Under the pieces are notes generated by a model, which was given only the letters and a program-made list of their open reading frames with translations, made no database searches and was not told where the DNA came from. The position numbers and the translations under genes are program-made. Positions 8,845 to 21,077 of a DNA stretch of 31,036 nt are shown here, in pieces; positions within the stretch are counted from its first letter, which is position 1; every line of letters starts with the position of its first letter. Source of the DNA: a virus. The stretch spans positions 1 through 31,036 of the IMG/VR virus record IMGVR_UViG_3300020711_000353; one strand, 5' to 3'.

Positions 8845-10047
8845 TCACTTGTTCAAGATATTTTGCAATTGTGCAATTCTTGAACTAACTCTTGATCCAG
8901 CATTTCCCATTGCTTGTCCACCAATACTTTGAGGAGCAGGAGTTGATACTGGAGTAGGAGTTGGAGCAGCAGGAGTGGCTGGTGCAACAGGTGTCATTGC
9001 AGGTGCTGGAGTTGATACTGGAGTAGGAGTTGGAGTTGGAGTAGGTGCTTGTGTTGCAGGAGCAGGAGCAGCAGGTGTTGGTGCAGGAGTAGATGGAACT
9101 GGGGTTGCTTGTGATGTAAGAGGAGTTGTTGTTGGTGTTGAAGTAGTGGTGGTTGCAGGTGCCGGTGTCGAAGTTGCAGTAGATGAAGTAGGTACAGGAG
9201 CTGGTGCTGCAGGAGTAGGTGTGCTTATTTGATTTTGTGCAATGTTAGGATTAGTACTTATTGCAGGTGCAGGTGTGCTTACAGCAGGAATTGGAGAACT
9301 TATAGTGGGAGCAGGTGCAGCAGTTGGTACTGTTGGTGCTACTACAGGAGCAGGTGCAGGGGTTGCTGCTATAGGAGTAGCTTTAGGAACTGCTGCTACA
9401 GGAGCAGGTGTAGCACTACCACCGGTACCTGGCATCATAGCAATCATGCCATCTTTAATAAAATTTGTATCGTTTGATCTCTTCAATCTCTCAGATAACT
9501 TAGCAATTCTTGCACTAATCTTAGAAGAAGCATTTTGCATTTGCTGTTCATCAATTCCTTGTGGTGGTGTAGCTTGTACAGGTGGTTGTTGAACAACATC
9601 ACTAGAAACAGGAGCAGCAGGAGCAGAAGTAGGTACAAATGTTGTTGGTGCAGGAGTTGTTGGAGCTACAGGTTTTGTAGAATCAATAGATGTATCAACA
9701 CCTTGTTGTGGAGCTTTTGGAAGATTGTTTTCATCAATAGTAGGATCACCAGTTAATCCAGGGTGCGTATTAACAGGAGTTGTAGGTGCTTTTGGTGTTG
9801 GCTTGTCCGGAATGTTTGGGTTACTTTCAGTTGGGTCTCCCGGATCACCATCATTGTCTGGATCGGTGCTCTTCGTTGTTGCAACAGGCTTAGTGCTAAC
9901 TGGTTTTGAACTTGCTGGAGTTACACCAGAAGCTTGTTGGTGAGCAGCTGTTTGAGCAGCAGTAGGTAGAGTTACTTTAGGTGGTGCAGCTGGTGTTTTA
10001 GCAACACTTCCACCAGGATTAGCTGGTGCTAGTAATGCTATACGGTA
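8845..10047 (-). CDS. -1 frame extension of the Ala-rich protein (makes an 800-aa fusion)
   Basis: This frame is open from 10068 to the stop at 8845. It has no ATG, GTG or TTG until the ATG at 9540, so its first 169 codons cannot be translated independently. It is reached by a -1 slip at 10047-10053 in the upstream gene, which would add 400 residues to the first 400. The extension is rich in Pro, Ala and Thr. It repeats modules seen before the slip: DPDNDGDPGDPTESNPN copies DPDNDNDPNDPNESNPN, and ISARIAKLSERLKRSNDTNF copies the KIARLSYFLKESKDTNF helix. A third, partial helix ends the protein (SRVSSRIAQLQNILNK). The alternative is an independent 231-aa gene starting at 9540, but no well-spaced ribosome site is visible there. 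A sequencing error is the other alternative. Confidence 0.7.
   Translation of the reverse strand, partial: YRIALLAPANPGGSVAKTPAAPPKVTLPTAAQTAAHQQASGVTPASSKPVSTKPVATTKSTDPDNDGDPGDPTESNPNIPDKPTPKAPTTPVNTHPGLTGDPTIDENNLPKAPQQGVDTSIDSTKPVAPTTPAPTTFVPTSAPAAPVSSDVVQQPPVQATPPQGIDEQQMQNASSKISARIAKLSERLKRSNDTNFIKDGMIAMMPGTGGSATPAPVAAVPKATPIAATPAPAPVVAPTVPTAAPAPTISSPIPAVSTPAPAISTNPNIAQNQISTPTPAAPAPVPTSSTATSTPAPATTTTSTPTTTPLTSQATPVPSTPAPTPAAPAPATQAPTPTPTPTPVSTPAPAMTPVAPATPAAPTPTPVSTPAPQSIGGQAMGNAGSRVSSRIAQLQNILNK
9999..10040 (-). promoter_or_regulatory. Frameshift-stimulating stem-loop
   Basis: On the mRNA strand the arms pair at 15 of 18 positions. TAGCA pairs with TGCTA; after one U-U mismatch TACT pairs with AGTG (one G-U); after two mismatches CACCAG pairs with CTGGTG. 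The loop is CTAATC. The structure begins 6 nt after the slippery heptamer, the usual distance for -1 frameshift stimulators. The zero-frame TAG stop is the first three bases of its 5' arm. Confidence 0.65.
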
Positions 10048-11246
10048 AAATTTGTATCTTTTGATTCCTTAAGAAAGTATGATAGTCTAGCAATCTTACG
10101 AGCAGCACCCTCTTTAGCATTTGGATTACTTTCGTTTGGATCATTAGGGTCATTATCATTATCTGGATCAGTTGCTGATGGTGCTTTTTGAAACTGCATG
10201 TTACCTTCAGCAGCATTTGCACTAGGCATTGGAGTTCTAAATGATGATGGTGCTGATGGTGCTGGTGGAGTAGAAGCACCGGATGGCTTGTCCCCTTGAA
10301 CACCTTTAGTAAATTGACTAATAAGAGATCCTGCGGCTGCGGCGGCACCGGCAAATGGTGCAGCAACACCCTTAGCAACGTCAGTTGCAGCAGTTCCTAC
10401 TGCATCAGCAGCACCTGCAACATCATGACGAGCTCTGTCAAATTGATTAGCAGTAGAGTGAGCAACATCAGCTGCAGCAGTTCCTACTGCGTTTCCAGCA
10501 GCTTGTGCAGCAGACCCTATACCAGAAGCAGCATCTCCTACGCCAGTTCCTACGGCGTGAGCAACACCTTTAGCAACATCAGAAACTTGACTTGGAAGTT
10601 TTTGTACTTCGTTTCCTACTGCTGATACTCCTGTGCCTACTGCTCTTGTAGCATCTCCTACACCAGTTCCTACGGCGTGAGCAACATCTTTAGCGCCAGT
10701 TCCTACTGCATTTGCAACACCCTTAGCAACGTCAGTTGCTTGGCCTGGAAGTTTTGTTACTTCGTTTCCTACTGCCTTTGCAGCAGATCCTACACCAGAA
10801 GCAGCATCTCCTACGCCAGTTCCTACAGCGTGTGCAACATCTTTAGCGGCGTTTCCTACTGCTTTTGTAGCCTTGCCTGCACCTGATCCTACATCAGAAA
10901 TAGCTTGACCTAGGTCAGAAATAGGATTCCATCCCCATGCAGTTTTTGTACTACTTTCTTTGCAAAAATCACAGTTAGCGTGGCGAATTGACCATTCTTC
11001 GTATACTGCTCGTACAAGCTTAGCTTTAGAGTCACTGACATTAGCAAGCTTGCGATAAGCTACCTTCTCGATGTCTTCTTCAACCATTTGCATGCGTTGA
11101 GCTAATTCTTTGTCGCTGTGAGCGAGGAATAGAAAATCACCAGTTTTTGTAAGCAATTCATGCTTAGCAGTTACTAGTTTCTTACCGGCAATCTTTGCGT
11201 CAAAAGCAAGATTTACTGTGTCATCGTAATCGAACATCGAGGTCAT
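10038..11246 (-). CDS. Ala/Gly-rich repeat protein, zero-frame product (402 aa)
   Basis: The ATG at 11246 has an excellent AAGGAG site seven bases upstream. Residues 1 to about 110 form a folded-looking helical domain (FDYDDTVNLAFDAKIAGKK) ending in a Cys pair (CDFC). Residues of about 120-320 are Ala/Gly/Val-rich amphipathic repeats with units such as DVAHAVGTGVGDA and AKAVGNEV. These resemble LEA or apolipoprotein-like helices and may bind membrane or form an extended rod. The tail has an acidic Asp/Asn/Pro linker and a KIARLSYFLKES helix, ending FTV. Just before the stop lies A_AAT_TTT, so a fraction of ribosomes probably shift to the -1 frame. It follows three tRNA genes and a structured leader. 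No family is recognised, and a virion role is inference. Confidence 0.85.
   Translation of the reverse strand: MTSMFDYDDTVNLAFDAKIAGKKLVTAKHELLTKTGDFLFLAHSDKELAQRMQMVEEDIEKVAYRKLANVSDSKAKLVRAVYEEWSIRHANCDFCKESSTKTAWGWNPISDLGQAISDVGSGAGKATKAVGNAAKDVAHAVGTGVGDAASGVGSAAKAVGNEVTKLPGQATDVAKGVANAVGTGAKDVAHAVGTGVGDATRAVGTGVSAVGNEVQKLPSQVSDVAKGVAHAVGTGVGDAASGIGSAAQAAGNAVGTAAADVAHSTANQFDRARHDVAGAADAVGTAATDVAKGVAAPFAGAAAAAGSLISQFTKGVQGDKPSGASTPPAPSAPSSFRTPMPSANAAEGNMQFQKAPSATDPDNDNDPNDPNESNPNAKEGAARKIARLSYFLKESKDTNFTV
10047..10053 (-). promoter_or_regulatory. Slippery heptamer A_AAT_TTT for -1 frameshifting
   Basis: The zero-frame codons are ACA AAT TTT ACC GTA TAG. The heptamer fits the X_XXY_YYZ rule: a -1 slip re-pairs AAT onto AAA and TTT onto TTT. 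The stop follows two codons later. The next -1 codons (TAC CGT ATA GCA) continue open for 400 codons. The same in-phase heptamer occurs in the second repeat copy at 9460-9466, but without the nearby stop or the stem-loop. Confidence 0.7.
10534..10847 (-). repeat. Three coding repeats in the Ala-rich domain
   Basis: A near-identical stretch of about 40 bp occurs at 10534, 10654 and 10807, on the plus strand starting TCTCCTACRCCAGTTCCTAC. The copies encode variants of DVAHAVGTGVGDA. Spacings of 120 and 153 bp show duplication of larger 40- and 51-codon units. More diverged copies flank them. The repeats lie within the 402-aa gene and keep its frame. Confidence 0.8.
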
Positions 11247-11335: not shown

Positions 11336-11411
11336 TGGTAGGAATGGTAGGAATTGAACCCACGACCGAAGGATTATGAGTCCTCTGCTCTTACCACTGA
11401 GCTACATTCCC
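11336..11411 (-). tRNA. tRNA with CAU anticodon (Ile2 or elongator Met)
   Basis: A complete cloverleaf is visible. Acceptor GGGAATG pairs with CATTCCT (one G-U), the anticodon loop is CTCATAA, the T-arm contains TTCAATT, the discriminator is A, and CCA is encoded. The initiator hallmark (unpaired C1-A72) is absent, so this is not tRNA-fMet. The GACTCATAATC anticodon arm and the bases after it resemble lysidine-type tRNA-Ile(CAU). Elongator Met cannot be excluded. Confidence 0.9.
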
Positions 11412-11412
11412 T

Positions 11413-11486
11413 TGGCTGAGGGACTAGGACTCGAACCTAGAATAAGGGCTTCAAAGGCCCCTGTGTTGCCATTACACCATCCCTCA
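11413..11486 (-). tRNA. tRNA-Gln (anticodon TTG)
   Basis: The acceptor is TGAGGGA/TCCCTCA with U1-A72, typical of tRNA-Gln. The anticodon loop is CTTTGAA, the T-loop is TTCGAGT, the discriminator is G, and CCA is encoded. One base separates it from the CAU tRNA, so both are likely processed from one precursor. Confidence 0.93.
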
Positions 11487-11487
11487 T

Positions 11488-11562
11488 TGGCTCCCCAGAT
11501 AGGATTCGAACCTATAACCTAGCGATTAACAGTCGCTTGCTCTGCCGTTGAGCTACCAGGGA
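11488..11562 (-). tRNA. tRNA-Asn (anticodon GTT)
   Basis: The acceptor is TCCCTGG/CTGGGGA with two wobble pairs. The anticodon loop is CTGTTAA in a GCGA/TCGC stem, the T-loop is TTCGAAT, the discriminator is G, and CCA is encoded. It begins 8 bases after the cupin stop, so it is probably transcribed with the sugar operon. It would decode the AAU codon of the slippery site downstream. Confidence 0.93.
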
Positions 11563-11570
11563 ATGTTTGG

Positions 11571-11930
11571 CTAATCGCCCTTTATTACTCTGATGCTATC
11601 ATCATCAAAATGTTGTGTAGAAAATTCAAATACACGAGCATTTTCTAATCCTATCAATTGATGACGTAGACCCGTGCGTATGTGAAAAGAATCACCAGGT
11701 TGTAGAACAATTTGCTCTGCCTGATTAATATCGTCAGTTTCACCGTATACAAGAACAACGGAACCATTCTCTACGTAGAATGTTTCATCTTTGATATTGT
11801 GGTAGTGCCAAGAAAGTCTTTTACCTTTGTTGAAATGAAGAATTTTTGAACAATACTTTTCTGTATTGCAAACGATCTCCTCGTAACCCCAACCTTTTAC
11901 TACGCATTCTCTAGCTGAAGAAGTGTTCAC
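11571..11930 (-). CDS. Single-domain cupin (119 aa)
   Basis: Both cupin motifs are present. Motif 1 is GKRLSWHYHNIKDETFYV, with HxH and Glu metal ligands in the G(X)5HXH pattern. Motif 2 is PGDSFHIRTGLRHQL, carrying the last His. Small cupins in sugar clusters often act on sugar phosphates or nucleotide sugars, as epimerases or isomerases like the mannose-6-phosphate isomerase C-domain. It starts at GTG with AAGGA seven bases upstream and overlaps the end of the HAD gene. It is the last protein gene of the heptose-like operon. A metal-dependent sugar isomerase or epimerase role is inference; the cupin fold is secure. Confidence 0.85.
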   Translation of the reverse strand: MNTSSARECVVKGWGYEEIVCNTEKYCSKILHFNKGKRLSWHYHNIKDETFYVENGSVVLVYGETDDINQAEQIVLQPGDSFHIRTGLRHQLIGLENARVFEFSTQHFDDDSIRVIKGD

Positions 11931-12228
11931 TATTTATTCCTTTATCATCAACATAGAAGTCACCAGAAGGTTTCCCCATAATTAATTGGTGGTATTGACA
12001 ACCCCAATCTTGCAATTGTTGTTCTGTTAATTCTCGGAAAAGCTCGCTAGCTTTTACTGGGTCATTATCAGTTCTATCCATACCTCTAGCTGTAAAGTAA
12101 ACAACCTTATGACCTTGGTCATATAAACTGTTTACTTGAATTATAGCATCGTGATATGGTTCTGCTTTTGCGTAATCACCATCGATAGTATTGCATATGG
12201 TGCCATCAATGTCAACTACAAACTTCAT
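11911..12228 (-). CDS. Minimal HAD-superfamily phosphatase (105 aa)
   Basis: The HAD motifs are visible in a very short, capless protein: DIDGT near the N-terminus (nucleophile and acid/base Asp), YFTARG (motif II Thr), and GKPSGDFYVDDKG (Lys plus the acidic motif IV). Family members near capsule and LPS genes are small phosphatases. Placed next to an HldE-type kinase and nucleotidyltransferase, it is a candidate for the heptose-1,7-bisphosphate phosphatase step. It is only about half the usual length of GmhB, so that assignment is tentative. Its ATG overlaps the stop of the nucleotidyltransferase gene (ATGA type). Confidence 0.8.
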   Translation of the reverse strand: MKFVVDIDGTICNTIDGDYAKAEPYHDAIIQVNSLYDQGHKVVYFTARGMDRTDNDPVKASELFRELTEQQLQDWGCQYHQLIMGKPSGDFYVDDKGINSEHFFS

Positions 12229-12617
12229 CTTTCTAGAATCCTTGTTGTTGAGTATGGTTCTATTCTTTCAAAATATTTTACAGTCTTGGCATATTCTTTA
12301 CCAGGAAATTCTTTGCCCCACCAATCACTACCAGCAAACCAAATATCTGGGTTAAGGTTTTTTACAATATTGATAAGTTGTTCATCTGAATTAAAAAGTA
12401 CAACATTGTCAACATGTTTTATGGAACTAATAACATATTTTCTATCATTTTCATTATGAAAAGGACGATCAGGACCTTTTTTCTCTGATACGCGTCTATC
12501 AGTATCAATGGCAACTGTGAGGGTTCCACCATAGCTTTTAGCGTGTTCTAATAATGCAATATGTCCTTTATGGATAACATCAAATGTACCAGTCAGGAAT
12601 AGTTGTTTATTTTCCAT
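12225..12617 (-). CDS. Cytidylyltransferase-fold nucleotidyltransferase, HldE C-domain-like (130 aa)
   Basis: The N-terminus LFLTGTFDVIHKGHIALLE contains the HxGH nucleotide-binding motif of the cytidylyltransferase superfamily. A late TTRILE segment matches the (S/T)T(S/T)xI motif that closes the active site. The length equals the C-terminal half of HldE/RfaE, which adenylylates heptose 1-phosphate to ADP-heptose. Glycerol-3-phosphate cytidylyltransferases have the same fold, but the neighbouring HldD-like epimerase and PfkB kinase favour a heptose substrate. The start overlaps the end of the epimerase gene. Confidence 0.85.
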   Translation of the reverse strand: MENKQLFLTGTFDVIHKGHIALLEHAKSYGGTLTVAIDTDRRVSEKKGPDRPFHNENDRKYVISSIKHVDNVVLFNSDEQLINIVKNLNPDIWFAGSDWWGKEFPGKEYAKTVKYFERIEPYSTTRILER

Positions 12618-13407
12618 TTAAATATTCTTCTATCGTTTTAAATTTGTGGTCACCCCACTCCTTCTTAGCACATGTGTAGGACTGATATTTACCAACCAAG
12701 TGTTCGGGAAATGGAATGATATTTACTTCACCATTATACTGCTTTGCAACGGCATTTGCAACTTCTTCAAAACTTCTTGGATTACTTGTACCAAGATCGT
12801 AGATACCAGATCGTTTGTCGTTGTTTAATACTATATCTACAACATCATCTACACAAATAAAGTCTCTTTTAAAATTTTCTGATCCTTCAAATAGATTAAG
12901 TTTACCAGACTCTTTAATTTGCCACGTAAATTTGCTAACTGGGCTTGCCTGGTCACCTTTATGTTCTTCTCCGTCACCATAGACGTTGAAATAACGAAAT
13001 CCTTGTATAAACTTAAAATCATCGATATTGTCTTGTACCCAGTAATCAATCTGCAATTTAGACATGGCATAATGATTGATAGGGTTAGGTATACCGTCCA
13101 AATTGCCATAAACTGAAGCTGATGATGCATACTTGATTGGAATACCGTGATCTCTAGCTTTTTCCAACAATGCCAGAGTGAACTCTATGTTGTAATTATA
13201 CAATAGTCTAATATTTTTTTCTGTGGTGCTTGATATAGCACCCTGGTGAAGAATAAGTTTAACTTGATCCCATGCATTAAAATTGGAAAGGAAATAATGA
13301 CAGTCTTGTTGATTGACTATCAATATACGTTGTCCATCAAGAGCTTTTAAGAAGTTCTTGCCAATGAACCCTTCGGATCCAGTAAGTATAATCAAACCGA
13401 TTCCCAT
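12607..13407 (-). CDS. hldD: ADP-L-glycero-D-manno-heptose 6-epimerase-like SDR (266 aa)
   Basis: This is an extended short-chain dehydrogenase/reductase. It has the NAD(P) motif TGSEGFIG, an ASSASVYG strand with the catalytic Ser, and YAMSK as the YxxxK dyad. HldD-specific segments are clear: GAISSTTE, FRYFNVYG followed by EEHKG and ASP, LFEGSENFKRDF, and IPFPEHLVGKYQ. HldD interconverts the D,D and L,D forms of ADP-heptose. At 266 aa it is shorter than the roughly 310 of the E. coli enzyme, with loss mainly after the Rossmann core. The ATG at 13407 overlaps the methyltransferase gene. A TTG four codons later would give a start more like the family's MIIVTG. Confidence 0.88.
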   Translation of the reverse strand: MGIGLIILTGSEGFIGKNFLKALDGQRILIVNQQDCHYFLSNFNAWDQVKLILHQGAISSTTEKNIRLLYNYNIEFTLALLEKARDHGIPIKYASSASVYGNLDGIPNPINHYAMSKLQIDYWVQDNIDDFKFIQGFRYFNVYGDGEEHKGDQASPVSKFTWQIKESGKLNLFEGSENFKRDFICVDDVVDIVLNNDKRSGIYDLGTSNPRSFEEVANAVAKQYNGEVNIIPFPEHLVGKYQSYTCAKKEWGDHKFKTIEEYLNGK

Positions 13408-14096
13408 TCTTCGTGATTGTATTCACCATTATGGTCCCAATATAGTTCAGATCGTGAAGCAGGGTAAACAATATCCCAATCTGTGAATTCGTAACCATTA
13501 TCAACCAATACATCATTTCTGATAGCAATCATATCGTCAGAATGAATCCAAACAGGGGTATATCCGTGTGAGTTGAACATTTTTTTAAATGCATACGGAG
13601 AAGCACCGTACCATCCGTTGTTTGACCATAACCAATTAATATCATATTTGCGTGTTTGGCTTTCATAAGGTTCAAAACGAACATTGTTTTCAACCATCAC
13701 CACTCTAGGAGAATACTTATTAAGCATTGCATCAGTAATCCAGTAATCCATACCATCAAGATCAATTGATACAAAATCTGGCGACTTTGGAACATTGTGC
13801 TTATCAAATAGATCACAAATGTTATCTTTGGAAATCCATTCCATGTGATAATTAATTGTGGTGTTATTTACATGTCTACTGTATTGTTCATCACCTTCCA
13901 TAAGAAGGCCATTCCAACCATTCATGTGCAAGTATGCTGTATTAGACAGTTCTGGCCAATCAGTGGCACCAAACTCAACATAATACTTATTAGTGGTACC
14001 TATCTTGTCAAATGTGTATTCAATAAATGAGTCTTGACCCTTTTGAGAAAACCCTTTGCTTATTGCTGGAACCTGATCGTATCTTAGAATTGTCAT
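13392..14096 (-). CDS. FkbM-like SAM-dependent methyltransferase (234 aa)
   Basis: The N-terminal half has the FkbM-family opening SQKGQDSFIEYTFDKIG, followed by the SAM-binding strand YYVEFGA and NGWNGLLMEGD. A later VSIDLDGMDYWI carries the acidic motif. FkbM enzymes O-methylate sugars and polyketides, so within this operon it may methylate the heptose or a glycan. The ATG at 14096 has GAGGAG ten bases upstream and overlaps the kinase stop. An upstream TTG at 14138 would extend far into the kinase gene and is rejected. Confidence 0.75.
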   Translation of the reverse strand: MTILRYDQVPAISKGFSQKGQDSFIEYTFDKIGTTNKYYVEFGATDWPELSNTAYLHMNGWNGLLMEGDEQYSRHVNNTTINYHMEWISKDNICDLFDKHNVPKSPDFVSIDLDGMDYWITDAMLNKYSPRVVMVENNVRFEPYESQTRKYDINWLWSNNGWYGASPYAFKKMFNSHGYTPVWIHSDDMIAIRNDVLVDNGYEFTDWDIVYPASRSELYWDHNGEYNHEEWESV

Positions 14097-14818
14097 ATAG
14101 TGGTCACTCCTCGATGTTTTACAACTTCTGATGCACACTCATTGGCATACACAATACTTTGTTCAAGATCTTGACTATTGACGTATTTAACAACCAAAGC
14201 TGCCATAAAAGCATCGCCAGCACCTGAAGAATCTTTGACTTCCATTCTTTTAACAGAATACCGTTTGCCATTGTATTCACATCCATGACCACCCATTGTG
14301 TGAATAATCTTATCTTTATAAGCATTTGTTATATCAGGATCAGAATTATTGTATTCGTAATCATTGATTTTGATTATGAAAGCTTTCTTTGCCCATTTTC
14401 CTAGTTTTTTCTTTGTATCAAGGAATACACGTGGATGTGATTTACAAATTGTTTCAATGTCATCTTCTGTCAAGAATCCTTTATTGTAATCAGAAATAAC
14501 AATGACTTCATATTGTTTATAATCAATTGGTGTATCAAATATACCGTAGTTAGGTTCTGTATCTACTCTAAAGAACGTATGGTTAGTAGCTTCATGCACA
14601 TATCTTGTCTTAGTAATAGATTCCCAATTGTCATTGGTAATAATACTGCAATCTTCAACAATTGTTATATTTCGCAGTACGTTCATTGCCATACCTTCGT
14701 TCTCTTCTTGATGTAGAACATTCAATACTGGTACTGGCACGTCAGGAGCAAGGCGCACTGCGTCACAATAGACAAATACGTCTTTACAACTTTCACCTAT
14801 CACTAGGATACGTTTCAT
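14093..14818 (-). CDS. PfkB-family sugar kinase, HldE N-domain-like (241 aa)
   Basis: The start MKRILVIGESCKDVFVYC and the segment RLAPDVPVPVLN closely follow the pattern of the HldE/RfaE kinase domain. A GMAMNVLRN segment corresponds to the GGAANVA motif. The PfkB signature DSSGAGDAF, with the catalytic Asp, is intact. HldE-N phosphorylates D-glycero-D-manno-heptose 7-phosphate at C1. In many bacteria it is fused to the nucleotidyltransferase; here the two are separate genes in one operon. I chose the ATG at 14818, just after the upstream stop, over a TTG at 14842. At 241 aa it is shorter than the roughly 315 of the E. coli domain. Confidence 0.83.
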   Translation of the reverse strand: MKRILVIGESCKDVFVYCDAVRLAPDVPVPVLNVLHQEENEGMAMNVLRNITIVEDCSIITNDNWESITKTRYVHEATNHTFFRVDTEPNYGIFDTPIDYKQYEVIVISDYNKGFLTEDDIETICKSHPRVFLDTKKKLGKWAKKAFIIKINDYEYNNSDPDITNAYKDKIIHTMGGHGCEYNGKRYSVKRMEVKDSSGAGDAFMAALVVKYVNSQDLEQSIVYANECASEVVKHRGVTTI

Positions 14819-14819
14819 T

Positions 14820-16022
14820 TTAGTATCTAGACTTCTTTTCAATAATGATAGCTGGACGATTACTCATAGCAGCATTCATAAACGCAAGAACTACTTCTCT
14901 AGCATCGGTAGGTTCAATTACTGGAATAGTTACTGCAGTTTTGAGAACATCAGTAAAGTCTTGTGAGTGTGTAATACCAGAATAGAACGGACCAGAATCA
15001 GCAGACACTGCACGCACAATAACAGGCACTTTGAATTCACCGTGCGAGATTCTTTCAATCTTGTCTAAGTGGTTTACAATAGCATCCATAGCAACCATCA
15101 TAAAATCGTGACGTTCAAAATAAACAACTGGTTTAAAACCTTCAAATGACATACCGATAGCTAGACCCATCATCAAGTTTTCAGCAACAGGTGTTTCAAT
15201 TTTTTGTTCTGCTGGTACACCTTTCAATGTACCCATAGCATCACCTCTTGCTACGTTATAACCAATAAAGACAGCGCCTTCACTACCTAATTTTGTCATA
15301 ACTTGTTCCATAGTATCCTTATACGAAGCACCTTCAGTATCTACAGGAGGATTCAAATATTCATATGGTTCAAGAGGTGGAAAGTACTCATCGTCAGTCT
15401 TTTTTACAGCTTGCGACAAGTCAATCATACCGGGTTTACGTGCATGTGGGTAAGTGATGTCATATTGATATTTCTTTACACACTTAAAAGGCCATTCAAA
15501 ATGAGCAGTGCTACCCCAACGTTCTTCATTGGTTGCTTCTACTGAACGGTTGTTAGCTTCAATCACAAAGGTACATGGTAGATCCATGCCTTCTACATAA
15601 CGAGCAGCTTCGAACAAGTGACCATTGTCTTCTGTACCATCTCCAACAAAACACCAGACCTTTTGGTCAGATCCCTTTTTCTTTAGAGCAAGAGCAATAC
15701 CAGCTGCGATAGCAGGTGTACCACCAATGATTGCGGAACAGAAGAAATTACGTTCTCTGTCATAAACAAACATACTTCGTCCATTAAGGATGCGATTTTC
15801 CAATACATCCTCAGGGATACCGTGTAGTAGAGCGTGATAGTGGCTACGGTGATTACTAATAACGTAATCACCTTCCTTGATATCCTTAAAGATATCAATT
15901 AGCTGTTCTTCATTGCCACCTGATAGGTGAAACAAGAATGGCAATTTATTATCTAAGTAAAGATCACCAATTCTATTCTCAAAAGCAATTAGCTCTTCAG
16001 GTGTCCAATTACGCTTATCCAT
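14820..16022 (-). CDS. Compact TPP-dependent E1-type enzyme, alpha and beta parts fused (400 aa)
   Basis: The first half is 2-oxoacid dehydrogenase E1-alpha-like. It has HRSHYHALLHG, GGTPAIAAGIALALKKKG, and the TPP/Mg signature GDGTEDNG...EANN. The second half is E1-beta or transketolase pyrimidine-domain-like (IETPVAENLMMGLAIGMSFEG, with the catalytic Glu). It ends right after this domain, so the transketolase C-terminal domain is missing. In separate-subunit E1 enzymes the two parts total over 600 residues. No lipoyl or E2 gene is nearby, so a role in respiration is unlikely. TPP carboligation or decarboxylation for a modified sugar is inferred from the operon. I start at MDKRNWTPEEL, right after the upstream stop. 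Confidence 0.85.
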   Translation of the reverse strand: MDKRNWTPEELIAFENRIGDLYLDNKLPFLFHLSGGNEEQLIDIFKDIKEGDYVISNHRSHYHALLHGIPEDVLENRILNGRSMFVYDRERNFFCSAIIGGTPAIAAGIALALKKKGSDQKVWCFVGDGTEDNGHLFEAARYVEGMDLPCTFVIEANNRSVEATNEERWGSTAHFEWPFKCVKKYQYDITYPHARKPGMIDLSQAVKKTDDEYFPPLEPYEYLNPPVDTEGASYKDTMEQVMTKLGSEGAVFIGYNVARGDAMGTLKGVPAEQKIETPVAENLMMGLAIGMSFEGFKPVVYFERHDFMMVAMDAIVNHLDKIERISHGEFKVPVIVRAVSADSGPFYSGITHSQDFTDVLKTAVTIPVIEPTDAREVVLAFMNAAMSNRPAIIIEKKSRY

Positions 16023-16023
16023 T

Positions 16024-17037
16024 TTATTTATCTTCCATTTCAATCATGATTCTACCGGCATTACCGTTCTTAAGTGTATCAAATGCTTTGTTAACATCAA
16101 ACAATTTATATTGATGAGTTACAATTTTATCAATATTAAGTTTACCATCTTTGTTGAGGTTGACATATCGGGGAATATCTTTCGAGGGATCTGTCTTGCC
16201 ACCTTGTGTAGCTTTGATGCTGAGTCCGTTGCCATTAAAGAAAGAAAGAGCGTTAGCGATCTCCAAAGATTCACCTGGTTTAGGTTGACCCACTAGGATC
16301 ATTCTACCATTGTTAGATAGATAACCAAAACTCTTTTTGATTGCATCAATGTTGCCCGTAGTATCAATTACTACGTCTACTTTTCCATCAAATTCATATT
16401 TGTTACTAAAGAACTTGTCAGCACCAGCATCAAACGATAACCATGCTTTATCTTCTTTATTATCAATAGCAACAATTGGATTCACACCACGTAAAACTGC
16501 ACCTTGGATTAGGTTTAGACCAACTCCACCAGTACCTATGATAGCAACGCTTTCACCAATCTTAAAATCACACTCATTGTCAATAATGCCAAGTGCAGTA
16601 GTTAAACTACATCCAAGAAGGGCAGCAAAATGATTGGGAGTATCAATAGGAACTGCAGTAAGTCTATTTTCTGAAACTATAGAGTATTCACTTAGTGTGG
16701 TAACCTTACCACTACTGATAGTCTTGCCATTAAGTACATATTCTGGGAACGGAGCTTCAATTCCATTTCCTACACGCCAATGCATGACTACTTTGTCACC
16801 AGGTTTAACAGTGGTAACACCATCACCAATTTCTTGTACAATGCCACAGCCTTCGTGACCCATAAGGTGAGGTAAAAATTTACCATTACCTTTATTGCCA
16901 TTAATCTCATGTAACTGAGAACCACAGATACCGCTAACAAGTACCTTTACAAGCACTTGGCCAACTTTCAATGATGTAAGTTCTATGTCTTCTACTGATA
17001 GTGGAGCGTTTAACTCTCTTAGAATAGCAGCTTTCAT
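16024..17037 (-). CDS. Zinc-dependent medium-chain alcohol dehydrogenase (337 aa)
   Basis: This is an MDR-superfamily oxidoreductase with GICGSQLHE near residue 38 (catalytic zinc Cys), GHEGCG near 60, and the Rossmann motif GTGGVGLN near 168. The four-Cys structural zinc lobe that normally follows the GHE region is absent: that stretch reads HWRVGNGIEAPFPEY. This occurs in some MDR subfamilies. It likely oxidises or reduces a polyol or sugar alcohol for the neighbouring TPP enzyme. The ATG overlaps the stop of the glycosyltransferase-like gene (TAATG). Confidence 0.88.
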   Translation of the reverse strand: MKAAILRELNAPLSVEDIELTSLKVGQVLVKVLVSGICGSQLHEINGNKGNGKFLPHLMGHEGCGIVQEIGDGVTTVKPGDKVVMHWRVGNGIEAPFPEYVLNGKTISSGKVTTLSEYSIVSENRLTAVPIDTPNHFAALLGCSLTTALGIIDNECDFKIGESVAIIGTGGVGLNLIQGAVLRGVNPIVAIDNKEDKAWLSFDAGADKFFSNKYEFDGKVDVVIDTTGNIDAIKKSFGYLSNNGRMILVGQPKPGESLEIANALSFFNGNGLSIKATQGGKTDPSKDIPRYVNLNKDGKLNIDKIVTHQYKLFDVNKAFDTLKNGNAGRIMIEMEDK

Positions 17038-17870
17038 TAGATCAACTCGTAAAGTGACTTGATAGTACGGAATTTGTCGTTAAGGTCAAATGTTCTAGCC
17101 ATATCACGGTAAGGAACATTTGTATTAACACGATCAAGCAAAGATATAAAATTTTCAACTGTTTTCATGCTTTCATTATTCACAGAAGCGATAAATGGTG
17201 CATTTGGTACACCGATAATGTTTTTGCAACGCTTAGCAAGTTTACCAATGTCAATTAAGTTTAGATTGTAATCTTGCGTGCTACGATATCCATCAACTTT
17301 GACGGTTGTGATGACGTTATGACCTTCATTGTTCAGTTTTTTTAACAATGCAGCAAAACTCTTGTCTTGCTCTTCTCTAGACATCCGAAGGATAGGGCTA
17401 ACAGGGTAACCATTAATAATCAAGTAGTCAAAGTCTTCATCCAATACATCTTTTGCAAAACATGGTTCATTTAGAATAGTTTCTTCAATAGAATCAAATG
17501 GTTGTTGCAGATGTGGCAGTTGTTTAGCTAGGTAATTACCAATTTCGTATGACCACATAAAATAACTGCTCAATGTGCTATCTTGCTTTGATACGTGGTG
17601 TGATTCATAAAGACTGTCACCAAGTATGGCATGACACCATAAGTCAATAGAGTAACGTGGGTGTGGCATATCAACAAATTTAATATTTTTATCAAGTATT
17701 AGTTCTGCTAGCTGTTCTCGGTAATTAACAGGAATAAAAACTTTAGCATTAATCTGTGGATTCTTTTCGCACAACTTGTTTACTACGTGCAATGCTACAA
17801 TACAATCACCGTAGCCTTTATCACAGTGGAAATACAAATCGTTAGTCAACAAAAGATCTAGATTTGGCAT
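17037..17870 (-). CDS. GT9/heptosyltransferase-like protein (277 aa)
   Basis: The N-terminus contains FHCDKGYGDCIVALHVVNKL, resembling the GDxxxxxPxxxxL opening of GT9 heptosyltransferases. Near the C-terminus CKNIIGVPNAPFIASV corresponds to their donor-binding motif (G-x-x-t/n-g/a-p). The two-domain GT-B arrangement is plausible at this length, although it is shorter than typical enzymes (about 320-350 aa). It heads the heptose-nucleotide operon, which suits an enzyme that transfers the product. No export or anchoring signal is seen. Similarity is at motif level only, so an unrelated GT-B-fold protein remains possible. Confidence 0.6.
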   Translation of the reverse strand: MPNLDLLLTNDLYFHCDKGYGDCIVALHVVNKLCEKNPQINAKVFIPVNYREQLAELILDKNIKFVDMPHPRYSIDLWCHAILGDSLYESHHVSKQDSTLSSYFMWSYEIGNYLAKQLPHLQQPFDSIEETILNEPCFAKDVLDEDFDYLIINGYPVSPILRMSREEQDKSFAALLKKLNNEGHNVITTVKVDGYRSTQDYNLNLIDIGKLAKRCKNIIGVPNAPFIASVNNESMKTVENFISLLDRVNTNVPYRDMARTFDLNDKFRTIKSLYELI

Positions 17871-17941: not shown

Positions 17942-18019
17942 TGGCGATCTCGATGGGACTTGAACCCACGACCCCTTCCGTGACAGGGAAGTGCTCTAAC
18001 CAAACTGAGCTACGAGACC
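17942..18019 (-). tRNA. tRNA-Asp (anticodon GTC)
   Basis: The acceptor is GGTCTCG/CGAGATC with one G-U pair. The anticodon loop is CTGTCAC in a TTCC/GGAA stem, the D-loop is standard, the T-loop is TTCAAGT, the discriminator is G, and CCA is encoded. It lies 7 bases after the holin-like stop, again between two protein-coding blocks. Confidence 0.93.
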
Positions 18020-18592: not shown

Positions 18593-19126
18593 TTATGCAA
18601 TAATATTGAAAGAAGCAGCTAAATCAGCTGGCATCATTTGATATGGGTTTCTATCAAATATGACACCACCGGCCCACAATGATTGAGCTACTACTGCACT
18701 GCAAATCATTGTGTTGTTATTTGTAAATTGCAACTTAATACCTGTGATTAAATCCAGGGTAATACTGACTATGGTAAAGAAACCATACTTATCCTTAATA
18801 AAGCTTTTGCAAGCAGACACCGTTTGATCACGGCTTTGTTTGTTAAGCTTTGTTGTGACGTAGTAATACTCTACATCAGCATACTCACTAATATTGCTAG
18901 TTATTACTCCACGTCCTACTGCCTCAACAATGGTTCCATCTTCGCCAACAATCATTGCAGCATGATTCCATCGAGAAAATGGCTTCATTTTACCATGATA
19001 TCTAATAAATTGACCAAATCGAATTAACTTGGCTAAGACACCTGTAGTTGATACCAAAATAAAGTCTCCTGGGACATATTGTTTTGGATCTTCACCTGCG
19101 GCATATATCTTATATGTCGAAGTCAT
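18593..19126 (-). CDS. Permuted papain-fold (YiiX/NlpC-P60-like) amidase (177 aa)
   Basis: The protein follows the order of circularly permuted NlpC/P60 enzymes. A VPGDFILVST strand leads to the catalytic His in WNHAAMIV (about H55), Glu in TIVEAVGRGV (about E68), and the nucleophile Cys late in MICSAVVAQSLW (about C142). PADLAASF near the end is also typical. These enzymes cleave amide or ester bonds in peptides, peptidoglycan or lipids. Near a holin-like gene it may be a lysis or cell-wall enzyme. No signal peptide or wall-binding domain is seen. The ATG lies within the last codons of the upstream gene with AAGG eight bases before it. Confidence 0.8.
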   Translation of the reverse strand: MTSTYKIYAAGEDPKQYVPGDFILVSTTGVLAKLIRFGQFIRYHGKMKPFSRWNHAAMIVGEDGTIVEAVGRGVITSNISEYADVEYYYVTTKLNKQSRDQTVSACKSFIKDKYGFFTIVSITLDLITGIKLQFTNNNTMICSAVVAQSLWAGGVIFDRNPYQMMPADLAASFNIIA

Positions 19127-20195
19127 TTATATCGCCTTCATAATCGTATGTTTCATTAATTCCAAAGAAGGATCCGTAAGCTGCACCACCTAGCGGATGC
19201 TCACCGACACCCAACATATCTAATGTTGATCCATATTCTCTTTTAATACCTTGTTCATCTTCTTCTTCTTTATTATCTATCACAGATGCTGTAATACCAG
19301 CAAGTGGTGCTGATGAAGATGACAAATCATAATCTTTGTTGCGTTCTACACCTAGTTGTGTACCTTGTTCATTACCAGGTTGAGTTACAAACCAGCTAGC
19401 ACCGCTTATAGGGGCTCCTCCGCCAATTCCGGTACCTGGGTTAGCCTTCTCATGCAATCCACCGTCTCTAGGTGGGTCTCCGACGCTTTGAAAGCCATTT
19501 GGTTTGTTAAGAGTAAAAGCACTACCTGCATCGGTATCAATAGCAATACGTTTAAAACCACCAAGAACGGCGGGAAGTGGACGATGTTGCTTTGCACCAG
19601 TTTCTAATTGATCTTGTGGACCAGTTTCTACTCTATTGGCATCACTAGTAAGATCAGCAGGTGTTAAACCATGTACAAAAGATTGGTCTTCCGAAATAAG
19701 GTCGGTGGGGTCTGCGTATTTAACGCTAGCGTGGTGTCCAAGAGTGTCATCTGGATCTGCATCGATTTGATACTTAGGAACACGGTTAAGAGGAGTGTTT
19801 AATTTTTCATCTACGCCAGTATTACCGGTATTAGGGTCAACATTGGGGGCAAAAGCTCCTACACTTCCTGCACCCGTAGAACGTTCACCAAAATCCATGA
19901 TTCCTGCTTGTGGCAGTCGTAGGATTTGGATTTTGCGAATAGCATCCTGAGCAGTAACGCTTTCAACAAATTGATTCCAAAGAATTTTATCTCTAGCAAG
20001 TGTTGATGTTAGCTCTGAGCCAAGTGATAGGGTAAGTATAAAACCTTCATCATGAACAGTTACTTCTGGATCTGCTTCGTAACCCTCAAATTGTGACATT
20101 ATAGAACGAATGATGCCTTCACGGTTGTCTTTAGTCACATAAGGATTAAAAACACAGCGAAAATTCTTCCTCTGTAGTCCAAGAGAATTGCTCAT
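19110..20195 (-). CDS. Hypothetical protein (361 aa)
   Basis: Unrecognised. Residues 1-105 look folded (QRKNFRCVFNPYVTKDNREG followed by beta-strand-like HDEGFILTLSLGSEL). From about 110 onward it is Gly/Pro/Asp/Asn-rich and low in hydrophobics, suggesting a long disordered region. The acidic C-terminus ends in YDYEGDINDFDI. The start lies three bases after the phosphoesterase stop with no clear ribosome site, so it is probably translationally coupled. A virion or tail-associated role is possible but nothing in the sequence proves it. Confidence 0.75.
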   Translation of the reverse strand: MSNSLGLQRKNFRCVFNPYVTKDNREGIIRSIMSQFEGYEADPEVTVHDEGFILTLSLGSELTSTLARDKILWNQFVESVTAQDAIRKIQILRLPQAGIMDFGERSTGAGSVGAFAPNVDPNTGNTGVDEKLNTPLNRVPKYQIDADPDDTLGHHASVKYADPTDLISEDQSFVHGLTPADLTSDANRVETGPQDQLETGAKQHRPLPAVLGGFKRIAIDTDAGSAFTLNKPNGFQSVGDPPRDGGLHEKANPGTGIGGGAPISGASWFVTQPGNEQGTQLGVERNKDYDLSSSSAPLAGITASVIDNKEEEDEQGIKREYGSTLDMLGVGEHPLGGAAYGSFFGINETYDYEGDINDFDI

Positions 20196-20198
20196 ATA

Positions 20199-21077
20199 CT
20201 ACATACGCGGATACTTGAGCTTTTTAAACCGTTCTAGGCTAGTGCCTTCATATCTACGACATAAGTAATCAAGGGAAACAAACATTGGGTCATAGCTTCC
20301 GCCATTAACTTGATGTTTAACGACAATACCACGCCAGTGAGCATTACCCTGAGGTCCTTTGTAGTTTTCATCATGCAGATAACAAGCACCTGCTACGAGG
20401 CCATGTTGGGATCGTGCTCCACCATCTCTACCATCACCATTTACATATCTCAGACCATAGAGAAGAGTCTGCTGGTGCCCCATAGTAAAAGAATGACCAA
20501 TGCTCTTAAGACGACCATCGATTGTTCCACCATAAGGATTACCCGTCATTGGGTTATAAAAGAAGTGACTGTAAGCTACGCCATCAAGCCATAGAATTTC
20601 TTTGAATGGCTTTACTTGCCATCCAGTACGAGCGTAATCAAGGTCGTCTGTGCTAAACAATCCATCAATTTGAGCATCATTTTCAGTTGCACGGTTAATA
20701 CGGTCTTCGTGATTACCTAAAAGAATATGACGCTCTGGATTCCATTTTGCGTGCTTAGTCTTACGTTGTTGATCATTGTAATCGTAAATAGGTTGATTAA
20801 GAATACGCCATGCTTCGTTAGCAGATTCAATGTCTTGAACTACTCTGCGACCTTCCATGCTCTTCTTTCCTTTATCATACAATGAAAGAGCTGGCATATC
20901 TGCATGGTCACCTAGGTGAATAATCTTAATATTCTTGTTGCGATATTCCTCAACGATAAACATTCCAATCCAATTCAGGTGGTCTGTAGGAACACCGTCC
21001 TTGGCTTGAGTATCTGGAATTACAATGTGTACAACTGGTTCGGTTTCTACTTGCAATTCTTTTTTCTTAAGGTTCAC
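20199..21077 (-). CDS. Calcineurin-like metallophosphoesterase (292 aa)
   Basis: The metal-binding motifs are in order: IPDTQ (Asp22), HLGDHAD (Asp57), LLGNHEDR (Asn122, His123), then later His residues in YSHFFYN and FTMGHQQ. The final motif reads GHQQ instead of the common GHTH, so one metal-ligand position is altered. Members hydrolyse phosphomono- or diesters, and many phages carry one, possibly acting on nucleic acid ends or cyclic nucleotides. It starts at GTG with AAGGA five bases upstream. The DTQ variant of motif I is common in phage homologues. Confidence 0.88.
   Translation of the reverse strand: MNLKKKELQVETEPVVHIVIPDTQAKDGVPTDHLNWIGMFIVEEYRNKNIKIIHLGDHADMPALSLYDKGKKSMEGRRVVQDIESANEAWRILNQPIYDYNDQQRKTKHAKWNPERHILLGNHEDRINRATENDAQIDGLFSTDDLDYARTGWQVKPFKEILWLDGVAYSHFFYNPMTGNPYGGTIDGRLKSIGHSFTMGHQQTLLYGLRYVNGDGRDGGARSQHGLVAGACYLHDENYKGPQGNAHWRGIVVKHQVNGGSYDPMFVSLDYLCRRYEGTSLERFKKLKYPRM

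Follow-up and report, generated by a model that had tools for sequence, protein, structure and literature searches.

This analysis concerns IMG/VR virus record IMGVR_UViG_3300020711_000353, a 31 kb viral record that is itself a fragment and was analysed over its full 31,036 nucleotides (the window), and in particular an operon at positions 11571-17870 with putative genes for heptose nucleotide synthesis. The operon consists of nine co-oriented open reading frames (ORFs) on the minus strand, which overlap or abut with no real gaps between them. In order of transcription, these are:

17037..17870 (-): GT9-like glycosyltransferase, 277 aa; no Pfam match, AlphaFold2 (AF2) model with a predicted local distance difference test (pLDDT) score of 67, GT9/WaaC/TibC fold matches
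16024..17037 (-): medium-chain dehydrogenase/reductase (MDR), zinc-type, 337 aa, member of the triad discussed below; ADH_N 1e-15, ADH_zinc_N 3e-13
14820..16043 (-): fused E1-alpha/E1-beta-type thiamine pyrophosphate (TPP) enzyme, 407 aa, triad; E1_dh 1.6e-14, Transket_pyr 1e-10, phrog_34187
14093..14842 (-): HldE-I-type PfkB kinase, 249 aa, triad and heptose module; best NCBIfam family TIGR02198 6e-28, PDB 4e84 (HldA) 3e-10, GAGD motif
13392..14138 (-): FkbM-like methyltransferase, 248 aa, optional; Methyltransf_21 in 2/10 relatives, best 1e-4
12607..13407 (-): HldD-like ADP-heptose 6-epimerase, 266 aa; best family TIGR02197 3e-63, 1eq2 (HldD) 4e-42
12225..12617 (-): HldE-II-like nucleotidyltransferase, 130 aa; best family TIGR02199 5e-29, HKGH motif
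11911..12228 (-): mini-HAD phosphatase of EcbF/BcbF type, 105 aa, candidate heptose bisphosphatase; best family TIGR01689 7e-11, PDB 9iqw 4e-11, DxDGT motif
11571..11930 (-): cupin, 119 aa, candidate sedoheptulose 7-phosphate isomerase in the place of GmhA; Lyx_isomer 4e-6, AF2 pLDDT 94.4

The annotated overlaps between these genes measure 1-46 nt, and become smaller if the FkbM-like, kinase and TPP genes are taken to begin at internal ATG codons and not at TTG/GTG. The original prediction for this DNA, which was made from the sequence alone, had described nine overlapping genes, and this was borne out. The block is not a chance arrangement, because the same genes occur in the same order in phages P-TIM68 and S-SM2 and in dozens of viral contigs. 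It lies between genes for tRNA-Asn/Gln/Met (11336-11562) and tRNA-Asp (17942-18019), all on the minus strand, and has the look of a cassette placed between tRNA genes. A scan for promoters and terminators gave no more than chance level.

A heptose-nucleotide route with a split HldE-like kinase and nucleotidyltransferase and an HldD-like epimerase had been proposed, and heptose families were indeed the best matches of all three proteins, at scores below the curated cut-offs; for the kinase and the nucleotidyltransferase, no non-heptose family scored better. The kinase keeps the catalytic GAGD motif of PfkB enzymes in alignment and is, judged by its sequence, a shortened HldE-type PfkB enzyme. 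The nucleotidyltransferase carries the HxGH motif as HKGH, and it has a further match to glycerol-3-phosphate cytidylyltransferase (6e-22). As this protein is HldE-II-like, ADP is more likely than GDP as the carrier, two options between which the original prediction had not chosen. When the epimerase was aligned with 1eq2, the active-site segments SSA, YxxxK and HKG (catalytic and substrate) were matched, which makes its assignment as an HldD relative convincing. The mini-HAD protein, originally suggested to be the bisphosphatase, belongs by sequence with EcbF/BcbF and is not a typical GmhB, yet it may carry out the phosphatase step.

The canonical ADP-heptose route comprises five activities: isomerase, kinase, phosphatase, adenylyltransferase and epimerase. 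No match to SIS/GmhA (SIS domain PF13580, SIS_2) was found in the window, in related contigs or in eight module-bearing complete cyanophages, in agreement with the GmhA-free route first described. The isomerase step itself need not be missing, however, because a five-protein heptose module with no SIS/GmhA leaves the cupin alone as a candidate for this role. The chemistry would also fit, since D-lyxose, D-mannose and D-manno-heptose have the same configuration next to the aldehyde.

The cupin passes the Pfam cut-offs for both Cupin_2 and Lyx_isomer, the latter of which was matched by 13/24 of its relatives at E 0.01, and D-lyxose isomerases were recovered from the PDB with the cupin profile. 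Fold comparison of the confident AF2 model placed D-lyxose isomerase (7nzp/7nzo/7nzq) at ranks 1-4, with phosphomannose isomerases lower in the list. In the Thermofilum enzyme (TsLI), metal and sugar are held by K62, H75, H77, K86, E88, H143, E156 and D163 (PMC8378251). These residues align with K29, H42, H44, K47, E49, H90, E102 and D109 of the cupin, of which the first seven were kept in 24/24 viral cupins and D109 in 23/24. The metal ligands His, His, Glu, His correspond to H42, H44, E49 and H90, and the equivalents of the sugar-binding K62, K86, E156 and D163 are K29, K47, E102 and D109. Alignment and model together suggest that the cupin probably fills the GmhA isomerase step of the phage heptose module.

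The strongest evidence for a cupin replacing GmhA is found in archaeal sequences, in which cupin and GmhA alternate and fusions to the kinase occur. When 279 genomes from a single archaeal phylum, entered via a Nanoarchaeota metagenome-assembled genome (MAG), were scanned with the viral cupin profile, 28 of them proved to carry a cupin. In seven genomes it is fused to the C-terminal side of an HldE-type kinase, and in one further arrangement, seen in a single genome, it lies between GmhB and nucleotidyltransferase domains within one chain. The fusions are located at:

L118:1450-2757 (-), L167:6105-7532 (-), and loci L160, L161, L164, L165, L166 and L171: cupin fused to an HldE-type kinase, or GmhB + cupin + nucleotidyltransferase

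In further genomes from this set (e.g. G088, G109 and G242), it is a SIS domain that lies within the kinase's own open frame. Within 4 kb of 64 strong archaeal kinase sites, SIS was present at 32, the cupin at 15, neither at 17 and both at 0 (Fisher p = 7e-6, without correction for relatedness); genes can be missing from MAGs. The HldE kinase near the cupin or GmhA often scored above the curated heptose cut-off. The first seven active-site residues were kept in 16/16 kinase-linked archaeal cupins; among those not linked to a kinase, 7/13 had Q for the first metal-binding His.

No Pfam or other sequence-profile support was obtained for the GT9-like gene, either for the window protein or for 30 relatives, and its support comes from the predicted fold: the eleven best PDB matches of a moderate model are all GT9/WaaC/TibC heptosyltransferases, which suggests that the protein folds like WaaC/TibC, in line with the transferase originally named. 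The FkbM assignment remains weakly supported, as Methyltransf_21 was matched by two of ten relatives and the window protein itself had no direct Pfam match. This gene is missing from 87%-identical relatives (L027-L030), and is thus optional.

From the observed gene content and order, families, active-site residues, fusions and co-occurrence, we infer the following reactions and substrates. It is fairly likely that the operon serves to turn host sedoheptulose 7-phosphate into a nucleotide-activated heptose for use in a glycan, the most probable product being ADP-D- or L-glycero-beta-D-manno-heptose. The cupin, with a divalent metal, would convert sedoheptulose 7-phosphate to D-glycero-D-manno-heptose 7-phosphate, which is the task of GmhA. 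The PfkB kinase would then phosphorylate C1, the mini-HAD would take off the 7-phosphate, the HldE-II-like enzyme would add AMP and the HldD-like enzyme would epimerise C6, and the GT9-like enzyme would move the heptose onto a glycan of the host surface or the virion. The MDR and the E1-type TPP enzyme would form a separable addition that draws on this kinase; they would most likely yield a second sugar skeleton, or a modified one, through TPP-dependent carbon-carbon chemistry and a redox step, although this is a guess.

Several points weigh against this heptose pathway. The kinase (97.9 bits against an equivalog cut-off of 345 for TIGR02198), the nucleotidyltransferase (101.1 against an equivalog cut-off of 181.5 for TIGR02199) and the epimerase (214 against 274.6 for TIGR02197) all score below threshold, and the kinase is shortened. 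The mini-HAD has its motifs but, at 105 aa, lacks the Cys/His zinc loop of GmhB, which the archaeal GmhB of L118 has. The cupin is 119 aa long and almost all strand, whereas lyxose isomerases have 171-227 aa and N-terminal helices; oxalate decarboxylase and KdgF folds come shortly after lyxose isomerase in the fold comparison, and cupins are functionally diverse. Furthermore, the GT9-like model is of moderate confidence, and the loci are phylogenetically non-independent. The low scores also fit the most probable alternative, in which the substrate of the cupin, kinase, HAD and nucleotidyltransferase is a different lyxo- or manno-configured sugar phosphate (hexose or pentose) and the product a non-heptose ADP- or CDP-sugar. 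Such a pathway would agree with the resemblance of the cupin to D-lyxose/D-mannose and mannose-6-phosphate isomerases, with the cytidylyltransferase match of the nucleotidyltransferase and with phages S-T4 and Sf-CH8, which have the module without an HldD-like gene. However, the epimerase is specifically HldD-like, in archaea cupin and GmhA alternate as neighbours of an HldE kinase, which often scores above the curated heptose cut-off, and the GT9-like gene has a predicted heptosyltransferase-like fold, so that another sugar appears unlikely.

The place of the TPP enzyme and MDR was examined in a tblastn survey of 90 viral loci, in which near-identical contigs were left in. The survey patterns indicated two modules, a triad (MDR, TPP enzyme and kinase) and the heptose module, with the kinase common to both. 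All genes of both modules were present in 38/90 loci, and 31/90 had the MDR, TPP enzyme and kinase only. Six complete cyanophages (P-SSM2, S-CAM1, S-T4, S-SSM7, Sf-FS3 and Sf-CH8) have the kinase, nucleotidyltransferase, HAD and cupin without TPP or MDR, four of them with the HldD-like epimerase (not S-T4 or Sf-CH8). The cupin, nucleotidyltransferase and HAD occurred together in 44 of the 45 cupin-bearing viral loci, the exception (L090) being at a contig edge. Among 97 loci with the TPP gene, the MDR, which adjoins it, was present in 83 and the kinase in 83, and an SDR gene (cluster c30) often accompanies the MDR (27 loci). The TPP enzyme and MDR are therefore not intrinsic steps of the heptose route but a separable module, which often occurs without the other heptose genes.

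These patterns bear on a second alternative, that the TPP enzyme and MDR provide the heptose skeleton in GmhA's stead (e.g. by C2 transfer onto a pentose) and the cupin has another role. The tight linkage of MDR, TPP enzyme and kinase is in its favour, as are the triad genes that adjoin GmhB-HldE-HldD in a Prochlorococcus genome (L017) and HldE with a GT9-like gene in a Nitrospirae MAG (L021). Nevertheless, the six cyanophages with the cupin-nucleotidyltransferase-HAD-kinase set and no TPP/MDR, the 31 viral loci with the triad and no cupin set, and four triad-bearing Patescibacteria in which no HldE-II nucleotidyltransferase match was found make this quite improbable; a GmhA substitute made of TPP enzyme and MDR is unlikely when the modules occur independently.

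The TPP protein is an E1-alpha PP domain fused to an E1-beta PYR domain, and its best NCBIfam match is pyruvate dehydrogenase (PDH) E1; transketolase and DXS were rejected on their weaker matches. The E1-type TPP enzyme and MDR dehydrogenase of the original prediction were thus both supported by domain matches. The protein stops after Transket_pyr, with no transketolase C-terminal domain, as do all 8 aligned relatives. The TPP-binding GDG...NN motif and the activating Glu of the PYR domain are invariant in alignment A1, except for the NN pair, which varies in some relatives. At least 401 viral stretches with the fused gene were confirmed, and in three phylum samples only the centre genome itself had it (1/292, 1/246 and 1/278), with no new cellular context beyond L014-L026; within the samples searched, the fused gene is nearly viral.

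Where the triad or its parts do occur in cells, the surroundings are varied. In the Prochlorococcus single-cell genome (L017:1624-6494), the MDR and TPP genes are convergent with GmhB, full HldE and HldD; GmhA may be missing here too, from a genome that could be incomplete, and its sole SIS_2 match (L105) looks like MurQ. The Nitrospirae MAG has the order TPP-MDR-SDR-HldE-GT9-like, and in DPANN archaea split alpha and beta TPP genes adjoin radical SAM genes. A similar arrangement is seen in a 735 kb phage (LR756501; L013:9995-12213), where a radical SAM gene lies between separate genes for E1-beta (176 aa) and E1-alpha (214 aa). These gene neighbourhoods suggest a part in sugar chemistry linked to an HldE-type kinase, and our guess is that the TPP enzyme adds or transfers a C2 unit and that a redox step follows; the synthesis of a branched sugar is likewise a guess. 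We tentatively raise the possibility that the triad, which is almost restricted to viruses within the samples searched, is a new sugar-building pathway, in which an E1 enzyme without the third domain makes or branches a sugar of at least seven carbons, the kinase activates it and phages join it to the cupin-based heptose route. The linked triad is a common viral metabolic module.

It is very improbable that the host provides the heptose 7-phosphate while the cupin acts as a dioxygenase or a binding protein. This reading would agree with the PHROG and RefSeq label (cysteine dioxygenase) and with Iyer et al. 2021 (PMC7824862), who group a cyanophage cupin-like double-stranded beta-helix (DSBH) protein with hydroxylating enzymes, but it is opposed by the 8/8 lyxose-isomerase active-site residues kept, the lyxose isomerases as top fold matches, the kinase-cupin fusions, the mutual exclusion with GmhA, and the mention by the same authors of cupin sugar isomerases in such clusters. 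The label was rejected on the residues and fold matches. In phage records (e.g. NC_006883, NC_015279 and NC_048049), the cupin goes under the name ‘cysteine dioxygenase’ or ‘putative nucleotidyltransferase’, and ‘phosphoheptose isomerase’ is given for the mini-HAD; these labels look wrong, and for the mini-HAD an isomerase was rejected because the protein is a HAD with a DxDGT motif.

Most window genes outside the operon had no PHROG match, and the virus is therefore divergent. A Pro/Thr/Ala-rich low-complexity protein is encoded at 8845-9540 (-), where GC skew is strong, and 10038-11246 (-) encodes a protein with tandem repeats of 153 bp; an ARIAKLS-like motif is common to N- or C-terminal segments of both. 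At 18593-21077 (-), a phrog_1128 match (enoyl-CoA hydratase-like, possibly a ClpP-like prohead protease) is accompanied by a metallophosphoesterase-like gene. No PADLOC match linked the window to a defence system.

Heptose is found in bacterial surface glycans that phages recognise, and a phage making its own heptose could alter the host surface. If the proposed role of the cupin is true, GmhA is not the sole entry to heptose nucleotides, as many cyanophages and certain archaea use an unrelated cupin instead. Two widespread labels (‘cysteine dioxygenase’ for the cupin and ‘phosphoheptose isomerase’ for the HAD) would be corrected, and many phage heptose clusters would become complete pathways. 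In general terms, cyanophage sugar clusters have been described as holding cupin-fold sugar isomerases, PfkB kinases, HIGH nucleotidyltransferases, epimerases and HAD phosphatases (Iyer et al. 2021, PMC7824862), and the SynMITS9220M01 paper (PMC7378029) lists heptose genes that include a ‘phosphoheptose isomerase’. No statement of a cupin replacing GmhA, or of a TPP gene in heptose clusters, was found in the open-licence papers searched, which does not in itself prove novelty; a guessed parallel with branched sugars in Coxiella likewise yielded no paper.

In comparison with known systems, the operon shares with the bacterial ADP-heptose pathway (GmhA, HldE, GmhB and HldD) an HldE-type kinase/nucleotidyltransferase, an HldD-like epimerase, a HAD phosphatase and a neighbouring putative GT9-like transferase, but it has HldE as two genes, a cupin for GmhA, a mini-HAD for GmhB, and an added MDR and TPP enzyme. 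The sugar clusters of P-SSM2, S-CAM1 and S-SSM7 (T4-GC 304-308), which Iyer et al. 2021 treat in general terms, contain the cupin, kinase, nucleotidyltransferase, HAD and epimerase found here, with carbamoyltransferase and oxygenase genes instead of MDR/TPP. Those of P-TIM68 and S-SM2 have the MDR, TPP enzyme, kinase, epimerase, nucleotidyltransferase, cupin and HAD arranged almost as in the window, although their proteins are mostly 40-70% identical to those of the window, their transferases are different and no close GT9-like relative was detected in them. The TPP enzyme resembles pyruvate/2-oxoacid dehydrogenase E1 in its TPP-binding PP domain and its PYR domain with conserved Glu and His, and differs in its fused alpha/beta halves, the lack of a transketolase C-terminal domain and its occurrence in sugar operons. 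The cupin shares its fold with D-lyxose/D-mannose isomerases (TsLI, YdaE and Z5688), as well as all eight residues for metal and sugar binding, but it is shorter, with no N-terminal helices and no insert between the metal-binding motifs, and its substrate is probably a phosphorylated C7 sugar.

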